Shown piece by piece: positions 3,860 through 42,400 of a DNA stretch of 42,400 nucleotides (the first letter of the stretch is position 1; each line of letters begins with the position of its first letter). Position numbers and translations under genes: made by a program. The stretch covers positions 1 through 42,400 of the forward strand of contig JAQVNC010000008.1 of NCBI GenBank assembly GCA_028703305.1, in the 5' to 3' direction. The notes under the pieces were generated by a model, which saw nothing but the letters and a program-made list of their open reading frames with translations, was not told the origin of the DNA and ran no database searches. The stretch comes from Patescibacteria group bacterium (GTDB lineage Bacteria > Patescibacteriota > Patescibacteriia > Patescibacteriales > GWC2-42-12).

Positions 3860-5031
3860 AAAAGAAAGCTAAAAAAATAATAGGCGTGCTAACCGGAGTT
3901 AGGGCCGAGTATGGCCTCTTAAAGCCCGTTATGGAGCAAATAGTAAAAAGCAAAAATCTGCGATTGGCTACTTTGGTCACCGGCTGCCATTTAGATAAAA
4001 ATTCAGGCTACACCATAAAAGATATAATAAACGATGGGTTTAAAGTTGACGCGAAAATTCCCATGTACGGAAATTCAGGGCCAGCGGATCTCCGAATTCC
4101 TTTGTCTTTAAGCAGGGGTTTAAGCGGCATAACCAAGGCGCTAAAAAAAATAAAACCGGATTTTCTTTTGCTCTTAGGAGACAGGGGCGAGGCTTTAATG
4201 GGCGCGATAGCGGCCGCTTACCTTAATATCCCGATTGCCCATATCCACGGCGGCGATCAGTGCGCCGGAGCCGATATTGACGATAATCTAAGGCATGCCA
4301 TAACAAAACTGGCCCATATCCATTTTCCGGCTACAAAAAAAAGCGCCCAAAGAATAGCGAGTTTAGGCGAAGAAGGCTGGAGAATCCATACGGTGGGCGC
4401 GCCTGGCCTGGATTCCATACTCAATCGTAAACTGCCGTCGAGGGCTAAAGTGGCTAATTTATTAAATCTAGATTTAAATAAACCGATTATCCTTTTACTC
4501 CAGCATGCCGTTTCTTCAGAGACGGAAAAAGCGGAAAAACAGATGGAAGAAACAATGCGGGCGATTATAGAATTAAATTTTCAGACGGTTATTATTTATC
4601 CCAATACCGACCCCGGCAATCTGGCAATCGTTAAAATTATTGAAAAATATAAAAATAACCCATTTTTACGGGCAAAAAAATCTCTGCCTCATGATATTTT
4701 TTTAGGGTTGATGAAAATAGCGGATGTTATGGTAGGAAATTCAAGCAGCGCTATTGTAGAGGCTCCGTCCTTTAAATTACCGGTTGTTAATATAGGCATA
4801 AGGCAGGCGGACCGGGAAAGAAGCAATAATATTATAGACGTAAATCATGATAGCAAGGAAATAAAAAAAGCAATTCTTAAAGCGGTCTACGACAATAAAT
4901 TTAAACTGAAAGTAAAGCGGGGCAAAAGCCCTTACGGCGACGGCAAGTCGGCCGAGAGAATTATTGATGTTTTATCAAAAATAAAAGTCGATGAAAAATT
5001 ATTAAGAAAGAAATTTATTTCGCGGAGTTAA
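3856..5031 (+). CDS. neuC: Hydrolysing UDP-N-acetylglucosamine 2-epimerase (NeuC/LegG type), copy 1
   Basis: GT-B-fold enzyme that epimerises UDP-GlcNAc (or a diacetamido derivative) at C2 and releases UDP, giving the ManNAc-type substrate for NeuB. GVLTGVRAEYGLLKPV at the N-terminus, LVTGCHLDKNSG, LLLGDRGEALMGA, IAHIHGGDQCAG with DDNLRHAITKLAHIHF, and VGNSSSAIVEAPSF are all NeuC/LegG family landmarks. At 391 aa the length is normal (about 380). It starts inside the previous stop (ATGA at 3856) and is followed after 7 bp by the WbqC gene. A paralogue is at 11239-12405, and the pair could serve two different nonulosonic acids or two steps of one route. Confidence 0.92.
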   Translation: MKKKAKKIIGVLTGVRAEYGLLKPVMEQIVKSKNLRLATLVTGCHLDKNSGYTIKDIINDGFKVDAKIPMYGNSGPADLRIPLSLSRGLSGITKALKKIKPDFLLLLGDRGEALMGAIAAAYLNIPIAHIHGGDQCAGADIDDNLRHAITKLAHIHFPATKKSAQRIASLGEEGWRIHTVGAPGLDSILNRKLPSRAKVANLLNLDLNKPIILLLQHAVSSETEKAEKQMEETMRAIIELNFQTVIIYPNTDPGNLAIVKIIEKYKNNPFLRAKKSLPHDIFLGLMKIADVMVGNSSSAIVEAPSFKLPVVNIGIRQADRERSNNIIDVNHDSKEIKKAILKAVYDNKFKLKVKRGKSPYGDGKSAERIIDVLSKIKVDEKLLRKKFISRS

Positions 5032-5038
5032 TAATTTT

Positions 5039-5761
5039 ATGATACTTTCAGGCCATCAACCGGAATATTTGCCATATCTTGGCTATATTTATAAAATCGC
5101 CAAAGCTGATAAGTTTATTTTAGTGGATCATATCCAATATTTGCAAAAGAGTTTCCAGAACAGCAATAGAATCAGAACCGCGCCCGGCGAAAACGGTTTT
5201 GCTTGGCTAACCGTGCCGGTAATAACTCATGGCCGCAGGTATCAAAAAATAAGCGAGGTGGAAATTGATAATTCTTCGGACTGGGGCAAAAAACATTGGA
5301 AAACCATTTATTTAAATTATAAAAATACCCCCTTTTTTAAAGATTATGAAGATTTTTTTGAAAAATTGTACTTAAAAAAATGGGATAAATTAGCCGACTT
5401 AACCGAAGCGATTATTTATTATTTAGTGGAACAGCTGGAAATTAAAACGCCAATTTACAAAAGTTCAGATTACAATTTCAAGGGCGCTAAGACTGATTTA
5501 TTGATTGAGATGTGCGAAGCGCTGGGGGCGGATACTTATTTATCCGGCCAAGGAGCTAAATGCTACGTGGAAGAAGAAAAATTCAAAGCCCGAGGCTTAA
5601 ATCATGTGTTTTCTGATTTTAACCATCCGGTTTATAAGCAAAAATACGAACCATTCGTCGAAAATTTATCGGTAATTGATTTATTGTTTAATCATGGCCA
5701 GGAGGCTAAAAAAATAATTGAGAATTCATTTTATGAAAATAAAGAAAATAAACCAGAATAA
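5039..5761 (+). CDS. WbqC family protein
   Basis: WbqC-like protein of 240 aa. The family is recurrent in O-antigen and surface-glycan loci and its biochemical role is not settled. The signature is the N-terminal SGHQPEYLPYLGYIYKI, followed by LVDHIQYLQKSFQNSNRI and later YLSGQGAKCYVEE. No signal peptide or membrane segment is visible, so it should be cytoplasmic. The 3' end overlaps the next methyltransferase by 29 bp. Its place between neuC and the methyltransferases suggests it modifies an amino-sugar nucleotide, but that is inference. Confidence 0.8.
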   Translation: MILSGHQPEYLPYLGYIYKIAKADKFILVDHIQYLQKSFQNSNRIRTAPGENGFAWLTVPVITHGRRYQKISEVEIDNSSDWGKKHWKTIYLNYKNTPFFKDYEDFFEKLYLKKWDKLADLTEAIIYYLVEQLEIKTPIYKSSDYNFKGAKTDLLIEMCEALGADTYLSGQGAKCYVEEEKFKARGLNHVFSDFNHPVYKQKYEPFVENLSVIDLLFNHGQEAKKIIENSFYENKENKPE

Positions 5762-6404
5762 TAGGTGGGAAGAATTATATAAAAAAGGCCAGTACCAAGG
5801 CAGCTATCCCAATGAAGATGTTATCAGATTTATTCAGCATCATTTTCCCGACAGGGAAAAGAGAAAAAATATTAAAATTTTGGATTGGGGCTGCGGTACC
5901 GGCAGGCATGTCTGCTATTTGGCCAAAGAAGGCTTCTTAGCATATGGCGCGGAAGTTTCCGAAGCGGGCGTTAAGCTAACGAAAAAATGGCTTAATAAAG
6001 AAAAATTAAAAGCTAAAGTCGATGAAATAGACGGTTTAACCGCGCCCTACCGCGATAATTTTTTTGATGCTATTATAGAATGCGCGGTCTTGCAGCATAA
6101 TGAAAAAAATCAAATTAATGAAATCGCGGCCGAGATGAAACGGATCCTTAAGCCGGGCGGCCATATTTTTTCTTTATGCAAAGCCAAGCAAGATTCTTTA
6201 TTTAAGGGAGGCATGAGGCTGGAAAAAGACACTTTTTATATAAAAAATTCCGTTGAGACGCCTACCATTATTCATTTTTTTGACAGAAAAGAATTAAAGC
6301 TACTGTGGCATGAATTTACCGATATTAAGATTGAATACACCGAGAGAACGATAAATAATATGGCTAAAAAGGTTGCTCATTATATAGTCTGGGTAACAAA
6401 ATAA
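5733..6404 (+). CDS. Class I SAM-dependent methyltransferase (tandem copy A)
   Basis: Methyltransferase of 223 aa. Motif I is ILDWGCGTGRHVCYLAKEG, followed by an acidic residue at the end of the second strand (GAEVSE) and post-motif ILKPGGHIFSL. I chose ATG 5733 over the TTG at 5718 because it leaves a shorter overlap (29 bp) with the WbqC gene. It is clearly a paralogue of the next gene: both share a PNE/PDE-xx-V/IRF opening, a GRHxxYLAK motif, a HFFD/RKEL block and a xERTINN/LTRNN segment at similar positions. The likely role is O- or N-methylation of a glycan sugar; the acceptor is unknown. Confidence 0.85.
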   Translation: MKIKKINQNNRWEELYKKGQYQGSYPNEDVIRFIQHHFPDREKRKNIKILDWGCGTGRHVCYLAKEGFLAYGAEVSEAGVKLTKKWLNKEKLKAKVDEIDGLTAPYRDNFFDAIIECAVLQHNEKNQINEIAAEMKRILKPGGHIFSLCKAKQDSLFKGGMRLEKDTFYIKNSVETPTIIHFFDRKELKLLWHEFTDIKIEYTERTINNMAKKVAHYIVWVTK

Positions 6405-37609: not shown

Positions 37610-37631
37610 AAGGCTAATTTTAGCCTTTTTT
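37610..37631 (+). terminator. Terminator after murB
   Basis: Stem AAGGCTA/TAGCCTT (37610-37616 with 37621-37627), loop ATTT, followed by T6. Confidence 0.85.
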
Positions 37632-37663
37632 GTTATTATTTTATAAAATTTTATTATAAACTC

Positions 37664-37692
37664 TTGACGTATAAAAATAAATATGTTAATAT
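37664..37692 (+). promoter_or_regulatory. Promoter of the sigma4/HARE gene
   Basis: -35 TTGACG (37664-37669), a 17-bp spacer and -10 TAATAT (37687-37692). The expected start is about 37699, giving an 85-base leader. A hairpin (37708-37718 with about 37732-37742) and an AAGGAG at 37752-37757, far from the ATG, lie in that leader. Confidence 0.65.
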
Positions 37693-37783
37693 ATTGCAAT
37701 AAAATGAATATTAGACAAAAACTTAATAGTCTTGTTTAATATGTTTTAAAAAAGGAGATATTAACCTACTTTTTAATTTTTTT

Positions 37784-39016
37784 ATGGAAAATGATAATAA
37801 ATCTATTTTAGACCAAATAATGGACAACCACCAAGCCGAGGAAGTCGCCAAGCTTGACGCGGTTGAAATAATCACTAATTTATTCAACGAGCTCGACGAA
37901 AGAGAGCGTGATGTTTTAATTAGGCGTTTTGGCTTGTCGGGCGGCGGCAAAGAAACCTTGGAAGAAATCGGCAAAATCCATAAATTAACCAGAGAGCGCA
38001 TTAGGCAGATTGAAACCACCAGCGTAAAAAGATTGAGGCAGCTTGAGAATTTAGATAGCTATTTGAGCGGCTTGAAAAATATTATTATCAATTTGCTGGA
38101 AGAGCATGGCGGGCTTATGGAAAAAGAATATTTATTCAATAACTTAGTTAATTTTTCCATCGGCGGCGGGAAAAACGGCGACAACGAAATTAAACATAAG
38201 CGCCATTTTGATTTTTTAATATCAAAATTGCTGCATGATGAATTTGAAGCTGTTGGCGACTCGGAATATTTTAAAGAATCGTTTAAATTGAAATATCAGT
38301 CGTTAGAGCATCTGGAAGCTTTGGCTAAGGAGCTTTTGGAAAAAATAAAAGAGATTAAAAAAATCTTCATGACCGAAGAGCTGGTTAATTTGTCAAAAGA
38401 ATTGGAAACTTATAAAAGTAATCAAGAAAAATTCAGCCCGGCCGGCAATTTGGATGTTTCTGGAATTTTAGCCAATGATTTATTCAAAGAAAAAGCCGAG
38501 GTGGTTAACGGCAATAAAGTTATTTATTCAATTTTGCAGGCGGCAAAAAAAATTGAGCAAAATAGATTCGGCCTTTGGGGCTTAAATAGTTGGCGTGAAA
38601 TCAAGCCGAAAACTATCAATGATAAAATTTATTTGATTTTAAAAAATAGCGGCAAGCCAATGCATTTTTCCGAAATCGCCGATAAAATAAATCAAATAAG
38701 CTTTGATAAAAAAGTCGCCAACGCGGCCACGGTGCATAATGAATTGATTTTGGATGAAAAATATATTTTAGTCGGCCGCGGCCTTTACGGCCTTAAAGAG
38801 TGGGGCTACCAGAAAGGCACAGTCGCCGATGTAATTAAAAAAATTATTGCTGAATCAGGCCAGCCTTTAAAACGCGAAGAAATTATTAATAAGGTTTTAG
38901 GCCAAAGAATCGTTAAAAAGGCCACTATAAATTTAGCGTTAATGGATCGGAATAAATTTGAAATTACCAGCGATGGAAAATATAAAATAAAGGACGGTAG
39001 CGCTGTTGCCGAGTAA
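37784..39016 (+). CDS. Sigma-70 region 4 fused to HARE-HTH winged helices
   Basis: 410 aa. Residues about 34-88 are a sigma-70 region 4 helix-turn-helix (LDERERDVLIRRFGLSGGGK, then TLEEIGKIHKLTRERIRQIE and KRLRQLE), which reads -35 elements. There is no region 2, so it cannot act as a complete sigma factor. A middle helical part (90-270) is of unknown fold. The C-terminus has two HARE-HTH-like winged helices, about 278-345 (INDKIYLILKNSGKPMHFSE) and about 346-404 (TVADVIKKIIAESGQPLKRE), as in the RNA polymerase delta subunit. A transcription regulator touching RNA polymerase at the -35 is the best guess. Confidence 0.82.
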   Translation: MENDNKSILDQIMDNHQAEEVAKLDAVEIITNLFNELDERERDVLIRRFGLSGGGKETLEEIGKIHKLTRERIRQIETTSVKRLRQLENLDSYLSGLKNIIINLLEEHGGLMEKEYLFNNLVNFSIGGGKNGDNEIKHKRHFDFLISKLLHDEFEAVGDSEYFKESFKLKYQSLEHLEALAKELLEKIKEIKKIFMTEELVNLSKELETYKSNQEKFSPAGNLDVSGILANDLFKEKAEVVNGNKVIYSILQAAKKIEQNRFGLWGLNSWREIKPKTINDKIYLILKNSGKPMHFSEIADKINQISFDKKVANAATVHNELILDEKYILVGRGLYGLKEWGYQKGTVADVIKKIIAESGQPLKREEIINKVLGQRIVKKATINLALMDRNKFEITSDGKYKIKDGSAVAE

Positions 39017-39225: not shown

Positions 39226-40695
39226 ATGGATATAGTTATAAATATACAGCCAATATTGGATTTTTTAGATTTGCCAGTAGACCAAATGCTGTTATTGCTG
39301 TTTTATTATATCGGCTGGATTCCGATTGCGGTTACTTTTGTTTGGGGCGTAGGCCAGGTTTGGCTAAGATATATTCGTCTGGCTTACGGCGCTTCGGAAA
39401 AAACCGTTTTATTGGCGATTGACGTGCCTCGCGGCAACGCGCAAACGCCGATGGCCGTAGAAAATATTTTTGCTTATTTGGCCGGCGCGCATAGCACCAA
39501 GGATTTGTTTGAAAAATGGTGGCTGGGCGAGTGGCAGCTTTATTTCAGTTTTGAAATCGTCAGCATTGACGGCTATATCCAATTTTTAGTTTGGATGCCG
39601 GTGAAATACCGCAACCTGATGGAGGCGGCGATTTATTCCCAGTATCCGGACGCGGAAATTACCGAAGTCAATGATTATACGGCCGGCCTGCCAACGCATT
39701 TCCCTGACGAAGAATATGATATTTTTGGCGCCGAATATAAGCTGACAAAAAATTCAGTTTATCCGATAAAAACTTATAAGCATTTTGAGCATCAGATGGG
39801 CGAACCGGAAACCCAGTATAAAGATCCGATGGCGGTGCTAATGGATTTAATGGGCAGTATGAAAAAGGGCGAGCAGTTATGGTATCAAATTTTAACCATA
39901 CCGATCGGCCATGAATGGGCGGATCAGGGCGATGAAGAAATAAAAAGGATTGTGGGAGAGAAAGTTACTTCTAATAATTTTATTGATAAATTGATTGATG
40001 GCATAGTTGAGTTTATGGGCGCTATAAGCGAAATAATTTATAAGCTTTGGGGCGACATTGAAACCGCTAAAAAAGAAGAAAAAGAGCCGCAATTCAGAAT
40101 GATGAATTTAAAGCCCAGACAGAAAAAGCAGGTTGAGGAAATTCAGGAAAAAGTCGGCAAGCTCGGTTTTGGCGTTAAAATCAGGTACGTCTATATTGCC
40201 AAAAAAGAAATGATAAATAAAAATAAGGTAGCGTACGGTTTTACCGGCTATATGAAGCAATTCAATTTTAACGATTTGAATTCTTACAAGCCGGATACGG
40301 GCGATGGCGGCACTATGACTAAAGTTCAATATGATAGGATTTTCGGCAATTACCGGGTCAATGTCAGAAAGAATAAATTAATGACGGCTTATAGGTTTAG
40401 GAGCGATGCCCGCGGCCGTTTGCCCCATATTCTTAATACCGAAGAATTGGCTTCAATTTGGCATTTTCCGGTGGAGGCTTCGGTTAAAGCGCCTCTAATT
40501 CAGAAAGCTCCGGGTAGAAAAGCCGAGCCGCCGGCCGGCTTGCCCATAAGCGTGGGAAGTACCTCCAAAGATTTGGAATATGGTTTTCCCGCCAATAAAG
40601 CTGAAAGTATCTTTGTTTTAAATGACAAGCCCGGTGGAAATAAAGCCGAAGCTAAACCTAAAAATTCTCCGCCGGCTAATCTGCCGATAGTGTAA
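39226..40695 (+). CDS. Membrane-anchored protein of unknown function, partner of the ATPase downstream
   Basis: 489 aa, no family that I can name with certainty. One or two hydrophobic segments at the N-terminus (about 20-45, LLLLFYYIGWIPIAVTFVWG) are followed by a cytoplasmic part that opens LLAIDVPRGNAQTPMAVENIFAYL. That sequence resembles the amino-terminal domain of some VirB4/TraC-like ATPases in which the same module is fused to the motor. The C-terminal 60 residues are low-complexity, rich in Pro, Ala and Lys (APGRKAEPPAG, NDKPGGNKAE). The ATPase gene follows after a 167-bp repeat. I infer a split version of one machine. Confidence 0.55.
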   Translation: MDIVINIQPILDFLDLPVDQMLLLLFYYIGWIPIAVTFVWGVGQVWLRYIRLAYGASEKTVLLAIDVPRGNAQTPMAVENIFAYLAGAHSTKDLFEKWWLGEWQLYFSFEIVSIDGYIQFLVWMPVKYRNLMEAAIYSQYPDAEITEVNDYTAGLPTHFPDEEYDIFGAEYKLTKNSVYPIKTYKHFEHQMGEPETQYKDPMAVLMDLMGSMKKGEQLWYQILTIPIGHEWADQGDEEIKRIVGEKVTSNNFIDKLIDGIVEFMGAISEIIYKLWGDIETAKKEEKEPQFRMMNLKPRQKKQVEEIQEKVGKLGFGVKIRYVYIAKKEMINKNKVAYGFTGYMKQFNFNDLNSYKPDTGDGGTMTKVQYDRIFGNYRVNVRKNKLMTAYRFRSDARGRLPHILNTEELASIWHFPVEASVKAPLIQKAPGRKAEPPAGLPISVGSTSKDLEYGFPANKAESIFVLNDKPGGNKAEAKPKNSPPANLPIV

Positions 40696-40862: not shown

Positions 40863-42400
40863 ATGCCACAAGAAATAACAGTCTTCGCGGAAACAAATTT
40901 CCGCAATCAATATAGGCAATTTGGCATTAAAACCGACGATCGCCGCCGGCATATGTATTTGGTTGGTAAAACCGGCATGGGCAAATCAACTATTTTGGAG
41001 AACATGATTGTTGATGATATTAGATCGGGCAAAGGCGTTATGGTAGTTGATCCGCACGGCGATTTGGCGGAAAAAATTATTGAATATATTCCTTCAAGCC
41101 GGGTTAATGACGTTATTTATTTTAATCCATCCGATATTGATTATCCGATCGCCTTTAATATCGTTGAGCAGGTGGACGCGCACTTAAGGCATCTGGTCGC
41201 TTCTGGCCTGATCGGGGTTTTTAAAAAGCTTTGGGCTGATTCTTGGGGGCCGCGGCTTGAATATATTTTGCGCAATGCCATTTTAGCCGTTTTGGATTAT
41301 CCGGGCTCAACTTTATTAGCCATTACCAGGATGCTGTCGGATAAAAATTTTAGAAAAAAAGTCATAGAAAAAATTCAGGATCCGGTAGTAAAATCTTTTT
41401 GGGTTAATGAATTTTCCGGCTATGCCAATAATTTCGCTTCCGAAGCGGTTTCGCCGATTCAAAATAAAGTCGGGCAATTTTTATCAAGCGCGCTTATTAG
41501 AAATATCGTTGGCCAAGTAAAATCTTCAATTGATTTGCGCGAGGTCATGGATTCGGGTAAAATTTTAATTTTGAATTTAAGCAAAGGGCGCATCGGCGAA
41601 GATAATTCAGCGCTCCTGGGCGCCATGATGATTACTAAGGTCCAGTTGTCGGTTATGAGCCGGGTTGATATTTTGGAAAGAGACCGCAAAGATTTTTATC
41701 TTTATATTGACGAATTTCAAAATTTTACGACTGACAGTTTTGCCAATATTTTATCCGAAGCCAGAAAATATCGGCTTAATTTGATTATGGCGCATCAATA
41801 TATTGAACAGCTCGGAGAAATAGTTAAGCCGGCGGTTTTCGGCAATGTCGGCACTTTGGTTGTTTTTAGGGTGGGCGCGACTGACGCTGAAGAATTAGTA
41901 AAAGAATTTACCCCGACTTTCACCGAAGAAGATTTGGTTAATTTAGCCAAATATGAATTTTATATTAAATTGATGATTGACGGGGTTTCATCCGATCCTT
42001 TTTCCGCCCGCGGCCTGCCGCCTTTAACCGAAGAAGAAAAGACCGGCAATAAGGATAAAGTAATTAAAGTTTCGCGCGAAAGGTATGCCAAGCAAAGACT
42101 GTCCGTGGAAGAAAAGATTAATCGCTGGCATACCAGCAATGAAGACGAGGAAGAAAAAACCGAAAGGCGTCCGGAAAGAAAAATATTAAAAGAAGCGCCG
42201 GCGCCGCGGCAATACGCGCCGTCTAAACAAGCGCCAAGGAGTTTTTCTCCGGCGGTTAGCGATAAAAATTTCGTGAATAAACCAAAAGCCGAGGCGGGAA
42301 ATTTTAAGCAGCCGGATAATAATAAATATGATTATGTTTGCAGCCGCTGTGCCAAGCCAACCCAAGTTTCTTTCGTGCCCGACGGCATTAGGCCGATTTT
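40863..42400 (+). CDS. VirD4/HerA-like AAA ATPase, 3' end cut off
   Basis: 512 codons are present and the frame is still open at the window end, so the gene is partial. Walker A is LVGKTGMGKST (33-43), followed by VMVVDPHGDLAE (59-70), IYFNPSDIDYPIAFNI, and Walker B DFYLYIDEFQNF (about 277-288) with ILSEARKYRLNLIMAHQYIEQL. This is the type IV secretion coupling protein/HerA-FtsK family: hexameric motors that move DNA or proteins through membranes. After about residue 400 there is a low-complexity linker (Lys/Glu/Pro-rich) and, at the end, the start of a zinc ribbon (CSRCAKP). No membrane helix is visible, so the anchor may be the preceding gene product. Confidence 0.88.
   Translation, partial: MPQEITVFAETNFRNQYRQFGIKTDDRRRHMYLVGKTGMGKSTILENMIVDDIRSGKGVMVVDPHGDLAEKIIEYIPSSRVNDVIYFNPSDIDYPIAFNIVEQVDAHLRHLVASGLIGVFKKLWADSWGPRLEYILRNAILAVLDYPGSTLLAITRMLSDKNFRKKVIEKIQDPVVKSFWVNEFSGYANNFASEAVSPIQNKVGQFLSSALIRNIVGQVKSSIDLREVMDSGKILILNLSKGRIGEDNSALLGAMMITKVQLSVMSRVDILERDRKDFYLYIDEFQNFTTDSFANILSEARKYRLNLIMAHQYIEQLGEIVKPAVFGNVGTLVVFRVGATDAEELVKEFTPTFTEEDLVNLAKYEFYIKLMIDGVSSDPFSARGLPPLTEEEKTGNKDKVIKVSRERYAKQRLSVEEKINRWHTSNEDEEEKTERRPERKILKEAPAPRQYAPSKQAPRSFSPAVSDKNFVNKPKAEAGNFKQPDNNKYDYVCSRCAKPTQVSFVPDGIRPI

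Follow-up and report, generated by a model that had tools for sequence, protein, structure and literature searches.

A sigma-70 region 4 protein with four HARE-type winged helices in Patescibacteria, a candidate accessory transcription factor

Introduction

In sigma-70 factors, region 2 binds the core, recognises the -10 element and melts DNA, whereas in the split sigma factor SigO (YvrI)/RsoA of Bacillus subtilis the SigO side is a region 4 protein without region 2; SigO is not known to bear a winged-helix array. Phage T4 gp33 is likewise a sigma4-like flap module without a melting domain, and no HARE domains are known in it. The delta subunit (RpoE) of Bacillota, which sits on RNA polymerase between the beta' shelf and jaw, consists of one HARE domain and a long acidic disordered tail, and most of its work is done by the tail. 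The C-terminal domains of the RNA polymerase alpha subunit (alpha-CTDs) are upstream-promoter-binding domains. Aravind and Iyer (2012, in Cell Cycle, on HARE-HTH) reportedly described HARE proteins combining features of the alpha subunit and of a sigma factor.

The protein described here is encoded in a window of 42,400 nucleotides (the whole stretch of DNA that was analysed) from a Patescibacteria group bacterium. With the group 1/2 sigma-70 factors (RpoD, RpoS) it shares a region 4 retaining all of the -35-reading residues, but it lacks regions 1, 2 and 3 and would be unable to recognise or melt a -10 element. It resembles SigO/RsoA in being a region 4 protein without region 2, yet the genome of the window holds no orphan region-2 partner; the likeness to gp33 lies in the working idea only. 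Its third winged helix appears to share the HARE fold and family of the Bacillota delta subunit, and its model resembles solved delta chains; in contrast to delta, however, the protein comprises sigma4 and four wings and has no acidic tail. The literature search yielded no paper on an architecture of sigma4 plus a winged-helix array.

Domain organisation of the sigma4-HARE protein

The gene and the parts of its product are located as follows.

37784..39016, + strand: sigma4-HARE protein gene (ATG at 37784, stop codon ending at 39016, 410 aa)
37853..38053, + strand: sigma-70 region 4 (sigma4), residues 24-90, found by Pfam, HHalign and Foldseek
37988..38014, + strand: -35 recognition motif TRERIRQIE, residues 69-77
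38045..38299, + strand: winged helix w1, residues 88-172 (AlphaFold topology; HHalign 87% to w4)
38300..38590, + strand: winged helix w2 with an insertion, residues 173-269 (AlphaFold topology; HHalign 91% to w4)
38591..38809, + strand: winged helix w3, HARE-HTH/delta-like, residues 270-342 (Pfam HARE)
38810..39001, + strand: winged helix w4, second HARE copy, residues 343-406 (HHalign 97% to w3)

The Pfam search of the protein detected Sigma70_r4 at residues 34-86 (E 1.5e-14) and HARE-HTH, in two stretches, at residues 278-340 (E 2.3e-9), and NCBIfam added matches to the C-terminal parts of RpoS and RpoD. An AlphaFold model built from 38 orthologues (mean pLDDT 86, pTM 0.77) displayed winged-helix topology at about residues 88-172, 172-272, 270-342 and 343-406, and a second model, restricted to residues 88-410, agreed with the first. 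Profiles of the wings and of sigma4, taken as segments of an alignment of 115 homologues, were compared by HHalign, which related w1, w2 and w3 to w4 with probabilities of 87%, 91% and 97%, and sigma4 to any of the wings with about 1% or less. As judged from the predicted fold and these profile comparisons, the protein is a sigma4 followed by four tandem HARE-type wings, only the last two of which are detected by Pfam. The first-pass annotation had described a sigma region 4 fused to two HARE-HTH domains; both domain families and the HARE nature of the C-terminus were borne out, while the number of wings has to be raised to four.

The orthologues are 87-40% identical to the window protein, and its best conserved part is w3 (PKTINDKIYL...TVHNELILD...VGRG). 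Sigma4 was always N-terminal and HARE always C-terminal in the homologues examined, and in the sampled Patescibacterial members sigma4 begins no more than about 20-50 residues from the N-terminus. The HMMER alignment of RpoS with the window protein starts near residue 4, ahead of region 4. A short N-terminal motif, SILDQII, is present in only 52 of the 115 homologues and resembles the stretch that precedes region 4 in RpoS and RpoD, which hints at a sigma3.2-like element. In one sub-clade of the order (L044-L049, L051-L057 and L060) w4 is absent, so that w1-w3 appear to suffice there. The nearest copy of the Shine-Dalgarno-like AAGGAG lies some 27 bases 5' of the start codon (positions 37748-37784 of the window), and for this reason a classic SD-dependent initiation of translation is not apparent.

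Residues for -35 recognition and absence of region 2

Within the recognition motif, residues R70, E71, R72, R74 and Q75 are invariant in all 115 homologues and identical in the RpoD of the same bacteria; they correspond to R584, E585, R586, R588 and Q589 of Escherichia coli sigma70, which contact the -35 element. The hydrophobic positions of region 4 also keep their character across the homologues. The earlier proposal that the protein recognises a -35-type sequence is thus well supported at the level of sequence conservation. A Foldseek search with the sigma4 domain returned the sigmaA region 4/beta-flap-tip chimeras 8d5v, 7kug and 7kuf, and since these are solved structures of sigma4 joined to the beta flap, docking of the modelled domain on the flap is plausible.

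Pfam found no match to Sigma70_r2 in the window protein. A profile of residues 88-275 compared by HHalign with RpoD from the same order (21 proteins) gave a probability of 0.3%, as against 99.2% for the sigma4 segment and RpoD region 4. The cryptic region 2 within residues 90-270 that would have refuted the first reading is consequently rejected; that stretch forms two winged helices. The absence of region 2 had been claimed on first reading, as had the inability to melt a promoter; the former held, and the latter would follow from it.

Similarity to the delta subunit of RNA polymerase

The NCBIfam profile of the delta subunit matched residues 280-340 of the window protein with 40.5 bits, just short of the cut-off of 42, which was reached by three of ten distant homologues (L211, 47.9 bits; L181, 45.7 bits; L209, 42.0 bits). 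In the Foldseek search one wing matched the solved delta chains 8x6g_E, 9a6y_A, 7f75_L, 6zca_D and 2m4k with probabilities of 0.97-1.00, at E-values of 0.06-0.5, and the four-wing model also drew the tandem winged-helix proteins UFL1, SelB, RPC5 and TFIIE; by sequence only, even the top-scoring delta chain of the PDB was a weak match (E 0.012). Taken on profile and model similarity, w3 is delta-like. The protein ends in w4, and a long acidic disordered C-terminal region is absent.

The window protein is the only HARE protein of its genome, and the same is true of nearly all of 20 relatives; a separate delta is absent from this genome and from the order. The delta-like w3, together with this position as the sole HARE protein in most of the order, leaves the accessory subunit suggested by the first-pass annotation a plausible description; the anti-sigma-like regulator offered there as the other option would bind a sigma factor and block it.

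Relatives in Bacillota

Outside Patescibacteria, the family was sampled in Bacillota only, by a search with the alignment of the HARE pair. The Bacillota relatives (L241-L246) range from 536 to about 1180 aa, and in them one to three RNA polymerase alpha-CTDs are followed by sigma4 and then by the same wing array; alpha-CTD was found in L241, L242, L244 and L246 (genomes G457, G423, G422 and G383). The order sigma4, w1, w2, HARE, HARE is that of the window protein, and the family profile matched the Bacillota proteins in one continuous stretch from sigma4 to w4 (E 1e-28 to 1e-43). These relatives are, we assume, the alpha/sigma hybrids mentioned in the Introduction. They differ from the Patescibacterial form in two respects: they carry N-terminal alpha-CTDs, which the latter lacks, and their -35-reading residues are changed (TRARIQQI, TTRQWVSV), whereas those of Patescibacteria are invariant. 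On sequence grounds, the Patescibacterial protein would therefore be an alpha-CTD-less variant of hybrids that are already known, one in which -35 recognition has been kept.

Distribution in Patescibacteria

Orthologues are spread over Candidatus Falkowbacteria and further Patescibacteria. Matches were obtained in 40 of the 41 genomes searched (nearly all of the order), a tally that includes sigma4-only matches to RpoD, long matches being listed for about 37; all 29 good-quality genomes were positive. Nearly every genome of the order carries the gene. Phylum-wide, 163 of 287 genomes (57%) gave a match far stronger than that of the sigma4 of RpoD. The gene is absent in about 43% of the sampled genomes and hence is not indispensable across the phylum.

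In genomes L215, L219, L220 and L221 two sigma4-HARE genes lie ∼8 kb apart, with a leucyl-tRNA synthetase-like gene between both copies in L215 and L219. The family may travel on phages too, since a contig from the viral collection (IMGVR_UViG_3300035698_007438, positions 5004-5924; L099) codes for a full-length relative of 306 aa in which sigma4 and two HARE stretches are present; this is the sole full-length relative among the viral contig matches listed, the other 79 matching the region 4 part only. A contig labelled Planctomycetota (JALOQQ010000085.1; L063) bears a gene fragment that shares 75% identity with the window protein and is probably a misbinned Patescibacterial contig.

Promoter and leader of the gene

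Three elements were delineated upstream of the start codon.

37610..37635, + strand: terminator-like hairpin and T run after murB, separating murB from the sigma4-HARE transcription unit
37664..37692, + strand: promoter TTGACG-17-TAATAT with an extended -10 TG, its spacing and bases kept throughout the order and in part also in distant families
37712..37740, + strand: leader hairpin TAGACAA...TTGTTTA, kept in the close family only

Scanning the region for promoters in general gave no more than chance (6 found vs 7.2 expected), and the case for this promoter therefore rests on conservation. The pattern TTGAC-(16-18)-TAnnnT precedes 34 of 42 family genes of the order as against 16 of 205 neighbouring genes, and 37 of 54 family genes of distant families as against 23 of 287 neighbours; the count was confined to genes preceded by 80 bp or more of intergenic DNA, and, as related genomes are not independent, the Fisher p-values of the comparison overstate the case. 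The promoter itself is kept, in contrast to the leader sequence beside it, which has diverged. The good sigma-70 promoter noted on first reading is, in view of these counts, real as a feature strongly conserved across relatives.

Among 46 promoters of this kind in the order, the extended -10 TG is present in 43 and a T as sixth base of the -35 element in 38, other genes favouring A at that position (18/27). Spacer positions are kept as well, namely T9 (42/45) and A13 (38/45). The extended pattern TTGAC-N14-16-TGnTAnnnT has 51 sites in the window's own genome (e.g. L273) versus 6 for the reversed control, which places the sigma4-HARE promoter in a strong housekeeping class. One such site is situated 47 bases before a ribosomal protein S12-like (rpsL-like) gene.

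The leader, previously thought long and structured, is in fact short (about 85 nt), and it does not fold better than expected by chance (z = -1.4, with 16 of 200 shuffles as good). Rfam returned sub-threshold matches only and the leader hairpin showed no covariation, leaving a structured regulatory leader unsupported. The leader element was also considered as a regulon motif and discarded, as it occurs once in the genome. Autoregulation, which had been proposed from promoter and leader together, thus retains indirect support from the conserved near-consensus promoter and draws none from leader structure; a TTGAC-reading protein expressed from a conserved TTGAC promoter would be a natural candidate for it.

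Proposed role and alternative explanations

The reading favoured here, to which a probability of roughly 0.5 is assigned, is that the sigma4-HARE protein is a -35-binding accessory transcription factor which works with RNA polymerase and modulates RpoD transcription. Probably able to find promoters but not to open them, it looks like a transcription helper or brake. Sigma4, given the observed residue conservation, would read the same TTGAC -35 element as housekeeping RpoD and could probably dock on the beta flap of RNA polymerase, and the delta-like w3 and the other three wings would provide further contacts, with RNA polymerase and/or with DNA close to the -35 element. Since without region 2 no DNA can be melted, the protein would act on strong -35 promoters by taking up, sharing or reshaping their -35/flap site. 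RpoD transcription would thereby be dampened or retuned, and the protein's own conserved promoter would most likely be controlled in the same way.

An accessory factor is supported by the architecture, the invariant -35 residues, the delta-like w3, the near-absence of other HARE proteins and of a separate delta in genome and order, the core-like distribution and the conserved own promoter, and further by the upstream-promoter-binding alpha-CTDs of the Bacillota relatives. Against it, the conserved promoter may equally reflect the need of any strongly expressed RpoD-dependent gene, the acidic tail is absent, the sequence match to delta is weak, and about two in five sampled genomes do without the gene.

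A DNA-binding repressor or nucleoid-type protein, in which sigma4 would serve as a -35-specific helix-turn-helix and the wings would sit on neighbouring DNA with no contact to RNA polymerase, seems rather unlikely. Winged helices are mostly DNA-binding folds, the -35-reading residues are invariant, and T9 and A13 of the spacer are kept beyond the hexamers, as if another domain were reading them; w3, however, is nearest to the polymerase delta subunit and not to generic repressors, and the relatives carry polymerase alpha-CTDs. It is more doubtful that the protein is a Patescibacterial counterpart of delta, with sigma4 as a flap anchor and its work lying in elongation, recycling or sigma exchange. 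The delta-like w3, the homologues that reach the NCBI delta cut-off, the lack of any other HARE protein in nearly all genomes of the order, and the abundance predicted by the strong promoter would agree with this, but the acidic tail is missing, a large minority of the sampled genomes lack the gene, and a pure anchor would not need invariant -35-reading residues. A trans-acting sigma4, by which the polymerase-bound protein would displace region 4 of RpoD from the flap, so that region 2 came from RpoD and region 4 from the sigma4-HARE protein, is regarded as improbable.

The downstream neighbourhood bears on a further possibility.

39226..40695, + strand: membrane protein without a Pfam match, a conserved downstream neighbour
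40863..42398, + strand, running off the window: VirD4/TraD/HerA-like DNA translocase ATPase (Pfam TrwB_AAD_bind 1.2e-10, DUF87 1.3e-7)

The same-strand downstream order is kept in 44 of 53 loci of the order and in about 41 of 60 distant loci, and in some genomes the membrane protein and the ATPase are fused. With this order kept over the phylum, the genes often being less than 60 bp apart, the sigma4-HARE protein might be thought a functional partner (a regulator or DNA adaptor) of the membrane protein and the VirD4/HerA-like translocase. The membrane protein is, however, encoded in 284 of 287 genomes, including those without the sigma4-HARE gene, so that conserved order does not prove joint function, and a dependence between the two genes is unsupported; in the window itself the gap amounts to 210 bp, and in several distant families the genes are separated. 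Such a partnership is accordingly held to be a long shot. Finally, half of a split sigma factor in the style of Bacillus SigO/RsoA, with region 2 from a partner, would explain a region 4 without region 2 but is hardly credible, since all four region-2 proteins of the window's genome have their own region 4 and no orphan region 2 was found there.

Implications for Patescibacteria

Patescibacteria are a large group of ultra-small bacteria with very small genomes and few regulators, and the control of their transcription is little known. As a widespread protein in which a housekeeping-type -35 reader is joined to a delta-like domain of polymerase, the sigma4-HARE protein offers a concrete candidate for a core regulator in these organisms. 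Because its promoter is conserved and its -35-reading residues are invariant, it lends itself to direct tests in vitro. Should the accessory factor act at the flap, -35 recognition would be separable from the DNA-melting sigma factor; and if the improbable trans-acting sigma4 were true, -35 recognition at a set of promoters in many Patescibacteria would be supplied by a separate protein.
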